From: an uncultured Candidatus Saccharibacteria bacterium
Lineage (GTDB): Bacteria > Patescibacteriota > Saccharimonadia > Saccharimonadales > Saccharimonadaceae
Direction of reading: 5' to 3'
DNA length: 64,000 nucleotides
Assembly: GCA_947304155.1 (NCBI GenBank)
Contig: CAMZAD010000001.1
Location: 62,001 to 126,000 of the forward strand
Positions 31,742-59,727 of the stretch are shown here, piece by piece. Position 1 is the stretch's first letter; every line of letters starts with the position of its first letter. The notes below the pieces were generated by a model, which saw nothing but the letters and a program-made list of their open reading frames with translations, ran no database searches and had not been told where the DNA came from. Made by a program: the position numbers and the translations under genes.

Positions 31742-32644
31742 TTAACCGAAGAAACCGCGTTTTTTAGATGAGCTGTTTTTGAATTCTTCAAGAAGTTCTT
31801 TTTGACGCTTTGAAAGTTTAGTTGGGGTGTCGACAATAACGGAGACGATGTGTGGACCGCGGTCGCCATCGGCGCGGATTGGAACGCCATGGCCGCTGAG
31901 TTTGAATGGTGTGCCAGATTGGGTGCCGGCAGGAACTTTCATAGTAACTGGACCGTCGATAGTTTCGACGTCAATTTCGCAACCAAGAGCGGCGTCAATC
32001 ATTGAAATATGTTGTTCAGAAAGAATAATGCGGCCTTCGCGAGTGAGAGTCTTGTGTGGTCTGACGCGAACTTGGATATACAAATCGCCGGGAGTGCCAT
32101 CGGTTGATGGAGCGGCGCCACCACGGCCATTCAAACGAATACGCATTCCATCTTCGATACCAGCAGGAACTTTAAGTTTAATGTTCGATCCATCAACTGA
32201 GACGGTTTTTGTGGTACCAAAAACAGCTTCTTTAAAGTCAATCGTGATTGAGGTTTGGAGATCGGCACCACGGTTTCTGCGGCGGCCAAAGCCACCACCG
32301 AACATACCGCCAAGGATGTCTTCAAGGTCGATATCCATGCCACCGAAATTGAAGGTTTGGCTATAGGAGCCATTGCCGAATGGGTTGCCACCGCCAAAAG
32401 GATTTCCGCCGCCGCCATTGCCGCCAAGTCCAGCTTTGCCGAATTGGTCATAGCGAGCGCGTTTTTGTTTATCTGAGAGCACTTCGTGTGCTTCATTCAC
32501 TTCTTTGAATTTTTTCTCTGCTTCTTTGTCGCCAGGATTGCGGTCTGGATGATATTTCATAGCAAGCTTACGATAAGCCTTTTTGATTTCGTCATCTGAT
32601 GCGTCTTTCTTGACGCCAAGAATTTCATAATAATCATCTGCCAT
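31742..32644 (-). CDS. J-domain co-chaperone without zinc finger (DnaJ/CbpA type)
   Basis: 300 residues from the ATG at 32644. J domain (1-68) with the HPD motif in [10 protein letters not shown], Gly/Phe-rich linker (~75-125), then two beta-barrel client-binding domains ([14 protein letters not shown] and [14 protein letters not shown]). The four CxxCxGxG repeats of class A DnaJ are absent, making it a class B/CbpA-type J protein. It stimulates DnaK. It is governed by a CIRCE operator at its promoter, so heat-shock repression by HrcA is expected. Confidence 0.93.
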
Positions 32645-32651
32645 GCTATAC

Positions 32652-32689
32652 ATTATAGTGCTTTGGCACTCAAAATACAAGAGTGCTAA
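32652..32689 (-). promoter_or_regulatory. CIRCE heat-shock operator overlapping the dnaJ-like promoter
   Basis: Inverted repeat TTAGCACTC-N9-GAGTGC(C)AA on the minus strand (32663-32689), one mismatch from the CIRCE consensus. The 9-nt spacer contains the -35 hexamer TTGTAT (32675-32680). With a 17-nt spacer the -10 TATAAT is at 32652-32657, 7 nt before the ATG. Repressor binding would block RNA polymerase. Confidence 0.92.
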
Positions 32690-32764
32690 AATATCTCCGA
32701 AGAGTCCGTTAAAAATAATAGTTTTTTATGTTATAATATAGTCAATAATAATTTAGGAGTTACA

Positions 32765-33967
32765 ATGAAAAACGATCGCCTGATTCTGATCACGAATCCT
32801 GGAAGTTCTTCACGTAAATATGCCCTTTATAAAGGTTCTGAACTAGTTTGTTCTCTTCACTTTGAGTTTGAGGGCAAAGGTATTATCTGTACCATTACTC
32901 GTGCAGACGGATCAAAAAAGAAAATTAAAACTGACTTTAAGGCTCTTACTTCAACCGTTGCAAATATCGAAGAGATTTTGACAGCTGAAGGTTACCTTGG
33001 TGGTATGACTAAACTCGATGCTATTTTGGCTCGCGTGGCTGCACCTGGTGAGTATTTCTCACATGACCACATCGTTGATGAAGAATGTTTGAAACAACTT
33101 GAAGAAGCAAAGAAAAAAGCTCCACTTCACGTTCCAGTAGTTGCTGGCGAAATCGAGCACTTCACTAAGTCATTCAAAGGCACTCCAATTCTTCAAATTT
33201 CAGATACCTCATTCCATACTTCACGCCCAGAGCTCATGAAGGCTTATGCAATTGATCAAGATATTGCTGAAAAATATGACATTAAGCGTTGGGGTTATCA
33301 TGGTCTTTCAGTTGGCTCAATAGTCAACTACATGAAGAGTGTAAACATTCTTCCTGAAAGATTGATTGTCTGCCACATTGGTTCTGGTTCTTCCCTTACC
33401 GCCGTTTATGAAGGTAAATCACATGATACAACTATGGGCTACACTCCACTTGATGGCTTAATGATGTCTACTCGCTGTGGTGCAATTGACCCAGCTGCTG
33501 CACTTGCTTTGAAACGTGCTCTTAACCTTAGCTCAGACGAAGCACTTGAGAAATATCTCAACAAACAATGCGGTCTTCTCGGTGTTTCTGGCCAAAGTGA
33601 TGATATGCGTGAGATTATCCGTCTTCGTGATGAAGGTGATAAGAAAGGCACATTTGCACACGCACTTTATGTCTATCGCATTCAATCTGCAATCGGTCAA
33701 ATGGCAGCTTCACTTGGTGGTGTTGATGCAATCGTCTTTACTGCAACTATTGGTGAACGTTCAGACGAAATCCGCCGCATGGTTTGCCAAAAGCTTTCAT
33801 ATCTTGGCTTCGCTCTTGATGAATCTAAGAATATTGGTGACATGCCTGAAAGACACACTAATATCGCTGCAGAAGGTAGCAAACCAGTTTACGTCATTCG
33901 CACTGATGAATTCGAACAAATGATTCGCCGTGCAAACGATCTTCTTGAAGATGGCGTAGAAGGCTAA
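32765..33967 (+). CDS. ackA: Acetate kinase
   Basis: 400 residues. ASKHA fold with NPGSSSRKYAL (phosphate 1 motif), RWGYHGLS (catalytic region), HIGSGSSLTAV and STRCGAIDP, and a C-terminal adenosine site. It converts acetyl phosphate and ADP to acetate and ATP. No phosphotransacetylase is adjacent. Unlike many neighbours it has a leader: TATAAT ~25 nt upstream and a TAGGAG site before the ATG. Divergent from the dnaJ-like gene. Confidence 0.96.
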   Translation: MKNDRLILITNPGSSSRKYALYKGSELVCSLHFEFEGKGIICTITRADGSKKKIKTDFKALTSTVANIEEILTAEGYLGGMTKLDAILARVAAPGEYFSHDHIVDEECLKQLEEAKKKAPLHVPVVAGEIEHFTKSFKGTPILQISDTSFHTSRPELMKAYAIDQDIAEKYDIKRWGYHGLSVGSIVNYMKSVNILPERLIVCHIGSGSSLTAVYEGKSHDTTMGYTPLDGLMMSTRCGAIDPAAALALKRALNLSSDEALEKYLNKQCGLLGVSGQSDDMREIIRLRDEGDKKGTFAHALYVYRIQSAIGQMAASLGGVDAIVFTATIGERSDEIRRMVCQKLSYLGFALDESKNIGDMPERHTNIAAEGSKPVYVIRTDEFEQMIRRANDLLEDGVEG

Positions 33968-33976
33968 TAAAAACAG

Positions 33977-34083
33977 AAAACACCTTTGTTCATAGTCTCC
34001 GACTTGCTCGTCTAAATCAGTGATTTAGACCTCACAAATCGGTATGGGGATAAAACCCAAGACTATGAGACAAAGGTGTTTTT
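33977..34083. terminator. Compound terminator A: long stem with conserved multi-helix head
   Basis: Stem 33977-33997 with 34061-34082: 21 bp with one bulged G, T-rich on both sides (bidirectional). The head (33998-34060) holds a helix CCGA.TTG/CAA.TCGG, a 9-bp hairpin GTCTAAATC/GATTTAGAC and a small GGG/CCC hairpin with loop GATAAAA. On the minus strand the head aligns with that of element B (34118-34223). Confidence 0.8.
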
Positions 34084-34117
34084 GTTTTGAGGTATTAGTA
34101 TTCTAATAATAAAAAAT

Positions 34118-34223
34118 GATTGCCTTTAACTAGTAGCCTTAGGGTTGAATCCCCGTACCGATTCACGAGCTCCGAATCTTTAGATGAGGAGGAGTGAGTC
34201 GAGGCTACTAGTAAAGTGCAATC
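34118..34223. terminator. Compound terminator B: homologous head to element A, opposite orientation
   Basis: Stem 34118-34139 with 34202-34223: 21 bp, two single bulges, T6 runs on both flanks. The head (34140-34201) has GGG-TTGAAT-CCC, helix CGATTCAC/GTGAGTCG enclosing CTCC/GGAG. Blocks GGGTT, ATCCCC, TACCGATT and GAG match the minus strand of element A. Confidence 0.8.
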
Positions 34224-34238
34224 TTTTTTATTGGCTAA

Positions 34239-35549
34239 TTATTCATAGCGCAAAGCTTCAATTGGGTCTTTTCTTGCAGCTTTGAGTGCAGGGGCGGTAC
34301 CAGCAATGAATGAGATGAACATGATAAGAAGGATAACTGGAATGACGGTTGCTGGGCTGAATTGGACGAGCTCGAAGGTCGGGAAGCTTTCGAGAATCAT
34401 ACCTTCACCATGTAAGACGGCGTTAATAATTGTTCCGATAATCATTGAAACAACAGTACCGAAGATTGACCCCCAGAAGCCAAGTGCGATTGCTTCACAG
34501 CTAAAGCTAAAGAAGATTTTGAGTCTGCTCATACCGAGAGCCTTCATGAGGCCAATTTCCTTGGTACGTTCTTGGACTGACATGAGTAAGGTATTGATGA
34601 TACCAATTGAAGCGGCGACGAGGGCGATACCACCAAAGATATTAAGGACGGTGACCATGACGTCGAGGAAGCTCTTGATTGAACCTGCTTCGTCTTCAAC
34701 TGACATAGCAGTGAGGCCGAGCTCTTTGAGTTGTTCCTTAATCTCATCGATTTTGTCTGGGTCAACTTCGGCGACAGCTTGATAATATTCGCTAGCGCTA
34801 GAGGCTGGGAGACCTGCGACATTGATTTCGTGGATTTTATTCCAGAGAGTTAAGTTTGTGCGTGGGCCGGAAATAGCGAGGATACCAGGAGCTTGGACAC
34901 CAGTGACAGTCACGGTTAAGAGAGTTTGGCAATCCTTGCGGTTTTCTGAGGTGTAGCACTTAAGAGTGCTTGGAACGGCGATGGTGATTTTTTCGCCAAC
35001 TACGTCGTCGAGATTCTCATAGCCGAGAGCCTTGGCATAAGCATCGGTAAGGGCGATTTGGTATTCGCTAGAGTTGATTTCTGGAGCTTTGCCGGAAGCC
35101 ATATCGAGGTTAATGCCATCAACGATAAGGTTGAAAGTAGCGCGATAACGTTTGCTGGTTTTGGGACCGGTGACATAATCTACTGAAGCGTCTGCGAGTG
35201 GCTCAAGTGATTTGACACCATCAATTTTGCGGCCAGCTTCAATCTGTTCAGGTTTAATATAAAACGAGTTATTTCTAGAATCCTTGTCGTCGGTGTATTC
35301 TTGGACGTTGCTAGCGTTGAGCATCGACATCATGCTTTCCATAGCTTCAGTTTGGGTCATTTCAAGATAACCTTCGCCGCCGATTGAGCTGAGTTGCTTA
35401 TCTATGAAGTTGTTAACACCAGCACTAATAGCAGTATTCAAGATGATAGTGAAGCTACCAACGAAGATTGCAAGGATAGTCAAAGCGCTACGAACTTTGT
35501 TTCTAAGTAAGTTGGTGTTTGCGGTTTTAATGATATCTCTAGTTCTCAT
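34239..35549 (-). CDS. MacB/FtsX-type ABC transporter permease
   Basis: 436 residues. TM1 near residue 25-45, a ~220-residue extracellular MacB periplasmic-core-like domain, then three C-terminal helices (FtsX domain) with SVQERTKEIGLMKALGMSR between them. Typical MacB-like topology. These pairs act in mechanotransmission: lipoprotein, peptide or toxin export rather than classic transport. The ATG directly abuts the stop of the ATPase gene (TAAATG). Its 3' end faces ackA, with two compound terminators between. Confidence 0.92.
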   Translation of the reverse strand: MRTRDIIKTANTNLLRNKVRSALTILAIFVGSFTIILNTAISAGVNNFIDKQLSSIGGEGYLEMTQTEAMESMMSMLNASNVQEYTDDKDSRNNSFYIKPEQIEAGRKIDGVKSLEPLADASVDYVTGPKTSKRYRATFNLIVDGINLDMASGKAPEINSSEYQIALTDAYAKALGYENLDDVVGEKITIAVPSTLKCYTSENRKDCQTLLTVTVTGVQAPGILAISGPRTNLTLWNKIHEINVAGLPASSASEYYQAVAEVDPDKIDEIKEQLKELGLTAMSVEDEAGSIKSFLDVMVTVLNIFGGIALVAASIGIINTLLMSVQERTKEIGLMKALGMSRLKIFFSFSCEAIALGFWGSIFGTVVSMIIGTIINAVLHGEGMILESFPTFELVQFSPATVIPVILLIMFISFIAGTAPALKAARKDPIEALRYE

Positions 35550-58954: not shown

Positions 58955-58994
58955 AAGGATATTATAACACGCGTAAGTTAGGCATAGAATAAAA

Positions 58995-59131
58995 AATAAT
59001 CACTATTTTGGACGTCCCGGAGGTTATGACCGAGGAACAGCGCCGTTCACCCATGACGACCACCCCGTGGGCCGTGGAAAGCCCGTCAGGGCTTATGGGA
59101 TGAACGGACGCGTGTCCAAAAAGTGATTATT
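58995..59131. terminator. Compound terminator C after tsf with GC-rich multi-branched head
   Basis: Outer 18-bp stem with a single bulged A (58995-59013 with 59114-59131), A/T-rich with T runs outside. Inside, CCGTTCA-CCCAT (59043-59054) pairs with ATGGG-A-TGAACGG (59095-59107), enclosing AAGCCC/GGGCTT and CCAC/GTGG hairpins as read on the minus strand. The head is far richer in GC than its surroundings. Confidence 0.75.
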
Positions 59132-59136
59132 TATTA

Positions 59137-59727
59137 TTATTCGGTTACGCCGAGTTCAATGCGTTTGAATTGCTTAACGGTGATGTTTTCACCAGTCTTT
59201 GCAATGTTGTCTTTGATGAAGTCTGCAACAGTCTTGGTATCATCAAGAATGTATGGTTGGCTCATGAGAACTTTGTCAGCGAAAGCTTTTTTCATTTGGC
59301 CACCAAGGATTTGTTCCTTCATATTTTCTGGGCCTTTGAAGTTTTCTGAAAGTTCTTTCATTTTTGCTTCTTTTGCTTCTTCAGGAATGTCTTCTTCAGA
59401 AACGTAAAGTGGTGCCATTGATGCAACTTGCATTGCAATTTTATGAGCGAGGTCTTTGAATTCATCGGTTTTTGCTACGAATGAAGTTTCACAGTTGACT
59501 TCGACGATTGCAGCGATACGGCCATCGTGAACATATGAATCAACGAGACCTTCGCGAGTTTCACGGTCACCACGCTTTTCAGCTTTGGTGAGACCTTTTT
59601 TGCGCATAGCTTCGAGAGCTTTGTCAAAATCGCCATTTGCTTCAACGAGAGCGTTTTTAGCATCGGTAAGACCAACGCCAGAAAGTTCTTTAAGTTTTTT
59701 GATAGTAGCAATATCAATATTTGCCAT
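59137..59727 (-). CDS. tsf: Elongation factor Ts
   Basis: 196 residues, the short form. N-terminal UBA-like domain (IATIKKLKELSGVGLTDAKNALVEANGD) and the TDEFKDLAHKIAMQVA core motif that displaces Mg2+ and GDP from EF-Tu. One dimerisation subdomain is reduced. AGGAGG precedes the ATG. Second gene of rpsB-tsf. Confidence 0.96.
   Translation of the reverse strand: MANIDIATIKKLKELSGVGLTDAKNALVEANGDFDKALEAMRKKGLTKAEKRGDRETREGLVDSYVHDGRIAAIVEVNCETSFVAKTDEFKDLAHKIAMQVASMAPLYVSEEDIPEEAKEAKMKELSENFKGPENMKEQILGGQMKKAFADKVLMSQPYILDDTKTVADFIKDNIAKTGENITVKQFKRIELGVTE

Follow-up and report, generated by a model that had tools for sequence, protein, structure and literature searches.

Two large hairpins between ackA and a permease gene

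The window, that is the whole stretch of 64,000 nucleotides that was analysed, comes from an uncultured gut bacterium of the Candidatus Saccharibacteria. It contains ackA (32765-33967, plus strand) and, converging on it, an ABC permease gene (34239-35549, minus strand). The two products belong to the acetate kinase family and to the FtsX/MacB type of permease, respectively, in agreement with the gene names given in a preliminary description of the locus. Two elements of about 105 bases each lie head-on between these genes. Element A (33977-34083, minus strand) directly follows the 3′ end of ackA; its head, taken as the model match, covers 33994-34064 and its arms cover about 33970-33998 and 34060-34088. 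Element B (34118-34223, plus strand) directly adjoins the 3′ end of the permease gene, with its head at 34135-34206 and its arms at about 34112-34139 and 34202-34229. Both heads are antisense to the nearest gene. As read from the sequence, the 34 nt A/T-rich spacer (34084-34117) provides a T-run beyond A on the plus strand and a T-run beyond B on the minus strand.

Both elements were confirmed as long hairpins where the preliminary description had placed them, and both fold far better than their shuffles. The minus strand of A folds with -58.1 kcal/mol (z -10.1) and the plus strand of B with -53.5 kcal/mol (z -8.2). In each case an outer stem of about 21 bp, which contains a bulged base, carries a three-way-junction head. 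The short hairpin of the head reads GGGTT-N2-ATCCCC; its longer arm, CCGATT..GTCG, contains a GAG/GAG internal loop and has a tip that varies. A and B are palindromic on both strands. The fold of the head strand is 6-7 kcal/mol more stable than that of its complement and retains a U-G pair.

From their position and from the stem with its T-run, A and B are predicted to act as bidirectional terminators of ackA and the permease gene. A scan for simple terminators, which considered loops of 3-8 bases only, found none at A or B.

To follow the history of the locus, we compared its gene order among genomes. In genome G034 the permease gene, ackA and dnaJ are all on one strand, whereas in the window (31742-35549) ackA is inverted between the other two. 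Genomes G191 and G190 have the same inverted order as the window, and their convergent gap between ackA and the permease gene holds one simple terminator only. In G027, ackA is found elsewhere in the genome. A and B were probably gained in the lineage of the window species. The G191 terminator reads AATAAAAAATAACCCC-AAAT-CGGGGTTATTTTTTAT, and the base of B, AATAAAAAATGA.../...TCTTTTTTATT, is similar to it. B may thus have arisen from the ancestral terminator by insertion of a head at the tip; the similarity is suggestive only, since the sequences are A/T-rich.

Homologous heads private to one species

With A taken from the minus strand and B from the plus strand, the two heads can be aligned over about 63 nt with a local score of 31. 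The maximum was 25 in 2000 dinucleotide shuffles, and the opposite strand scored 12. Searched against the whole genome, each of the two finds its best non-self match in the other, with a score of 37-39 compared with 30 for the next. The homology of the heads in this orientation, as proposed in the preliminary description, therefore holds. The compensatory changes named there are also present, and five base pairs are changed on both sides; covariation from two sequences is weak alone, however, and 23 of 500 shuffles do equally well.

The stems had been described as sharing no sequence. This had to be corrected, as they show a weak likeness when aligned in register; CCTTT, TAG and CTT are common to both. 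In global alignments in register, only 27 of 2000 shuffles were not beaten by the 5′ arms and only 81 of 2000 by the 3′ arms. Since the arms are alike above most shuffles, A and B may be homologous over their full length.

Such a likeness of the stems would also fit a purely local origin, in which an inverted duplication of one large bidirectional terminator was followed by divergence of the copies, whose fold was kept because both terminate transcription, with no mobile element involved. There are just two copies, adjacent and inverted, with T-runs past the stems on both strands, and G191 and G190 have a single simple terminator at the orthologous place. However, a local duplication does not explain the conservation of a complex head when a short loop would be enough, the greater likeness of the heads than of the stems, or the presence in the genus of other head families of similar design. 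We regard a local origin as possible, though rather unlikely.

A covariance model (R1) was built from the two heads, which we call family W. In the 770,681-base genome of the window species it found A and B and no third copy. R1, whose search filters are able to lose weak matches, found no W head in 174 genomes of the genus, in 60 relatives, in 24 other families of the order (one genome each) or in the other 393 genomes of the same family. By this search, the W head is private to the species among the genomes compared. A further match in the same genome (L003), with two mismatches, was rejected as it has no hairpin and resembles coding sequence. A viral origin was considered and rejected as well: a 15-base pattern common to 94 viral contigs is a chance pattern, and R1 gave nothing convincing there. 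BLAST searches against phages and plasmids returned chance pieces only.

The preliminary description had allowed for a conserved RNA family, to be abandoned if related genomes held no further copies. As no further copies were found in the related genomes searched, a conserved RNA family is refuted by that criterion. The option of mobile hairpin insertions, offered in the same place, gained ground from the same design occurring genus-wide in families X and Y (see below). Rfam 15 gave no covariance-model match for A or B above the gathering score. Weak matches to eukaryotic microRNAs were far under their gathering scores.

The same design in two other head families

The other hairpin families came from an unbiased inverted-repeat scan. 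The scan revealed further large hairpins with complex heads at gene ends, both in the genome of the window species and in relatives. Two head families besides W were recognised among them, X and the lesser family Y. Family Y has a short form in the genome of the window species and a long form in G034, G190 and G027.

Family X was first noticed in copies from the genome of the window species, of which covariance search counts five. One of these lies in the window at 58988-59138 (minus strand, 151 nt; model match 59010-59117), between tsf and a gene for an RseP-like protease, and has the same design with a different head. The copy on L145 was found independently of the seed (nhmmer E 8.7e-14). 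A covariance model from four X heads (R2) was used with a threshold of E 0.01. It matched 147 of 170 genomes of the genus, and the genome richest in copies has at least 29. Across the class, matches occurred in 3 of 153 genera, all in one family, and this search serves as a negative control. The named records that match X are mostly ruminant-gut Candidatus Saccharibacteria.

In an alignment of X heads with 49 distinct rows, standard pairs make up 97.1% of pair cells, double changes occur at 14 of 19 pairs, and none of the shuffles does equally well. This alignment was fitted to the model and so leans in its favour; slid controls were far lower. Compared with the heads, the outer arms differ strongly between copies of one genome. 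The 11 X copies of G104 have heads that are on average 86% identical and outer 5′ arms that are 42% identical; for the 9 copies of G146 the values are 89% and 40%. The arms are self-complementary within a copy (local score 19.7), not between copies (6.8). Counting over 47 copies gave 28 cases of a bulged C on the 3′ arm. Homologous heads on unrelated stems, the pattern that the preliminary description noted for A and B, are thus real and occur generally across the genus.

A and B were compared with X and Y by the X head model and against shuffles. Their heads gave no alignment above chance, except that B scored 12-14 when set against short Y heads in reverse complement, with p from 0.003 or less to 0.01 in several dozen comparisons; we do not build on this. 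By folding, A and B resemble X in having a long stem, a short and a longer hairpin in the head and a location at gene ends, a likeness to which no statistic is attached. The link between A/B and X is one of architecture and position only, with no detectable sequence match. The possibility that A and B are diverged members of X or Y was tried and found no sequence support, as an apparent Y match (AGTCTTGGG...GTGAG) was lost against shuffles.

Several other hairpins were recorded on the way. In G027, the X-like heads at L230:16610-16769 and L233:12371-12494 are nearly identical except for a cleanly inserted module of about 31 nt, GAGCTTCGCTCACGCGTCCCAAGGGGCGAAC, which L230 has and L233 lacks. 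The same module occurs in other heads too, which makes these nested palindromic modules. In the genome of the window species, a short Y-type hairpin (L135:18073-18177) has a complete A/T-rich terminator hairpin inside its head. G034 has two more hairpins of 158-177 nt with other heads (L207:16352-16528 and L210:6857-7014). In the X heads L247-L276, two loops seem to change in step from copy to copy, as if they were of matched types: the one at the tip of the long hairpin (CTTC or CGTT/CGTC) and the one in the short hairpin (AGCA or CGTA).

Many X copies lie inside genes. Among 49 copies checked, 30 are within long open frames, and L268 was added on inspection; several reading frames and both orientations are represented. 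Host genes identified by NCBIfam are LepA, TruB, ObgE and MnmA. Further hosts, recognised from their sequence only, are Der, GatB, PyrG, ValRS, UvrB, UvrC, PheT and TatD. The genome of the window species itself has an X copy in frame within lepA (L145:19405-19476; G000:C2:59405-59476). In TruB, two conserved motifs are separated by 66 residues in five X-bearing orthologues and by more in three with an extra insert, compared with 44-46 residues in those orthologues without X that could be read. In MnmA, G146 carries an insert where G062 has none, with a net gain of 37 codons. At both the TruB and the MnmA site, one outer arm is similar to the unfilled orthologue, and the other comes close to its reverse complement (two sites read, no statistic). 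An intron or a translational bypass was considered for X and set aside, since the in-gene copies are open in frame and translation through them is simpler. A check for split genes at the copies outside open frames placed L268 alone in a gene, where it is also open.

Between species, the arms at the TruB site have 96.4% of cells paired and 12 double changes, a result equalled by 0 of 500 shuffles; the comparison uses seven sequences in one hand-placed block, and the eighth, which has an extra base, was left out. Over 1183 columns, the mismatches in X arms include 14 G-U compared with 23 A-C, so G-U is not preferred, and the X heads have 9 G-U among about 900 pairs. RNA structures normally tolerate G-U freely. 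The near-absence of G-U pairs therefore does not indicate selection for an RNA fold. In relation to the gene whose 3′ end faces the element, X is in the same orientation in 10 cases and in the opposite one in 8. The almost pure Watson-Crick pairing and the mixed orientation of X favour a palindromic element at the DNA level over a regulatory RNA. Pairing of this kind points to fold-back copying that perfects imperfect palindromes, or to recognition of a DNA hairpin.

For A and B themselves, a regulatory RNA would mean that the head works as a 3′ untranslated region RNA or as a released small RNA that binds a protein or ligand. The compensatory changes in the head are consistent with this, as are the better folding of the head strand and its U-G pair. 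However, the head is not conserved in any relative and has no Rfam match, both heads are antisense to the nearest gene, and the comparable families are mixed in orientation and nearly without G-U pairs. A regulatory RNA is therefore very unlikely. Least probable of all is a DNA recognition site, a folded strand or cruciform bound by a recombinase, nucleoid or replication protein in the manner of attC sites or single-strand origins: palindromy on both strands, the convergent location and, in comparable elements, Watson-Crick-only pairing with a recurrent bulged base on one arm would suit it, whereas comparable elements within many unrelated genes fit a site-specific role poorly and attC-type end boxes were not seen by eye in A or B.

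A proposed palindromic DNA element and its known counterparts

In the reading that we prefer, with a probability of about one half, A and B represent a palindromic DNA element that is private to the species and present in two inverted copies, and they serve as terminators of ackA and the permease gene. The evidence for it comes from the homology of A and B, from X, which is spread through the genus with covariation, and from the filled and unfilled sites in TruB and MnmA. It also comes from near-identical X heads on unrelated, self-complementary arms within one genome, from the roughly 30 of 49 X copies in frame, from the few G-U pairs and mixed orientation, and from the G191 and G190 gap with its simple terminator only. 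We count against it that A and B do not align to X or Y, that there are two copies only, that no movement between strains was observed, and that a search of 7 genomes for a Y1 transposase gave no match above the cut-off, with positive results in 10 of 14 control genomes.

On the palindromic-element reading, A and B would be an inverted dimer of the X-like design and, by position, putative bidirectional terminators. Such elements would insert as DNA and may be mobile. Their flanking arms would become and stay complementary, either because one arm is copied onto the other or because pairing is selected for. Between ackA and the permease gene, A and B would have replaced a simple bidirectional terminator in that role.

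A more specific proposal goes further and is unlikely, though worth stating. In this proposal, A and B belong to a so far unrecognised class of palindromic DNA elements in Saccharibacteria: it is chiefly the head that moves, and one host flank is copied as an inverted arm at insertion. The 20-25 bp stem of each copy would be partly host-built, such elements could sit in frame in essential genes, and the bulge that recurs on one arm would show where the element ends and the copied flank begins. If the arms do derive from the host, this would explain structured heads on unrelated terminator stems, and it would imply insertion or repair by fold-back copying, which as far as we know has not been described for REP or for Rickettsia palindromic elements.

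The A/B pair alone is of modest interest; the wider head/stem pattern that it exposed is of higher interest. Genomes of Patescibacteria are very small, yet this genus carries a dispersed palindromic repeat, in frame in housekeeping genes, with a compensating stem specific to each copy. A structured sequence between genes of these genomes is not necessarily a regulatory RNA. The peptides of about 20-40 residues that are inserted in TruB, LepA, ObgE and other proteins share one source. In the open-licence literature we found no description of such elements in Saccharibacteria, and conserved heads on self-complementary, copy-specific stems that enter housekeeping genes appear undescribed in the literature searched.

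Like intrinsic (rho-independent) terminators, A and B lie at gene 3′ ends and have a stem that contains G+C and, beyond it, a T-run; in A and B this holds on both strands. Intrinsic terminators have a short loop; A and B instead have a stem of about 21 bp and a structured head of about 70 nt.

REP and BIME sequences are extragenic palindromes at gene ends and are often inverted dimers (PMC3733652), which makes them the nearest counterpart of the A/B inverted dimer. However, REP units are 20-40 nt long and numerous, and their GTAG types are tied to a Y1 (RAYT) transposase. A and B are about 105 nt long and number two, and no Y1 transposase was found, so we do not assign them to the REP/RAYT system.

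The mobile GC clusters of yeast mitochondria are GC-rich palindromic modules that spread, merge and shuffle (PMC4478555), and the nested module of G027 (L230 compared with L233) is like them. They belong to another domain of life and are shorter, and copy-specific complementary arms are not known for them.

Rickettsia palindromic elements (RPE) are palindromes of about 100-150 nt in a bacterium with a reduced genome; they form several families and have many in-frame copies in unrelated genes (PMC10969869). In size, in the presence of several families and in the in-frame copies, RPE are the nearest known kind for X. In-frame copies are found in X, not in A and B, which are intergenic. Going by their description, RPE are conserved families that encode a conserved peptide, whereas X conserves the head only and has a stem specific to each copy.
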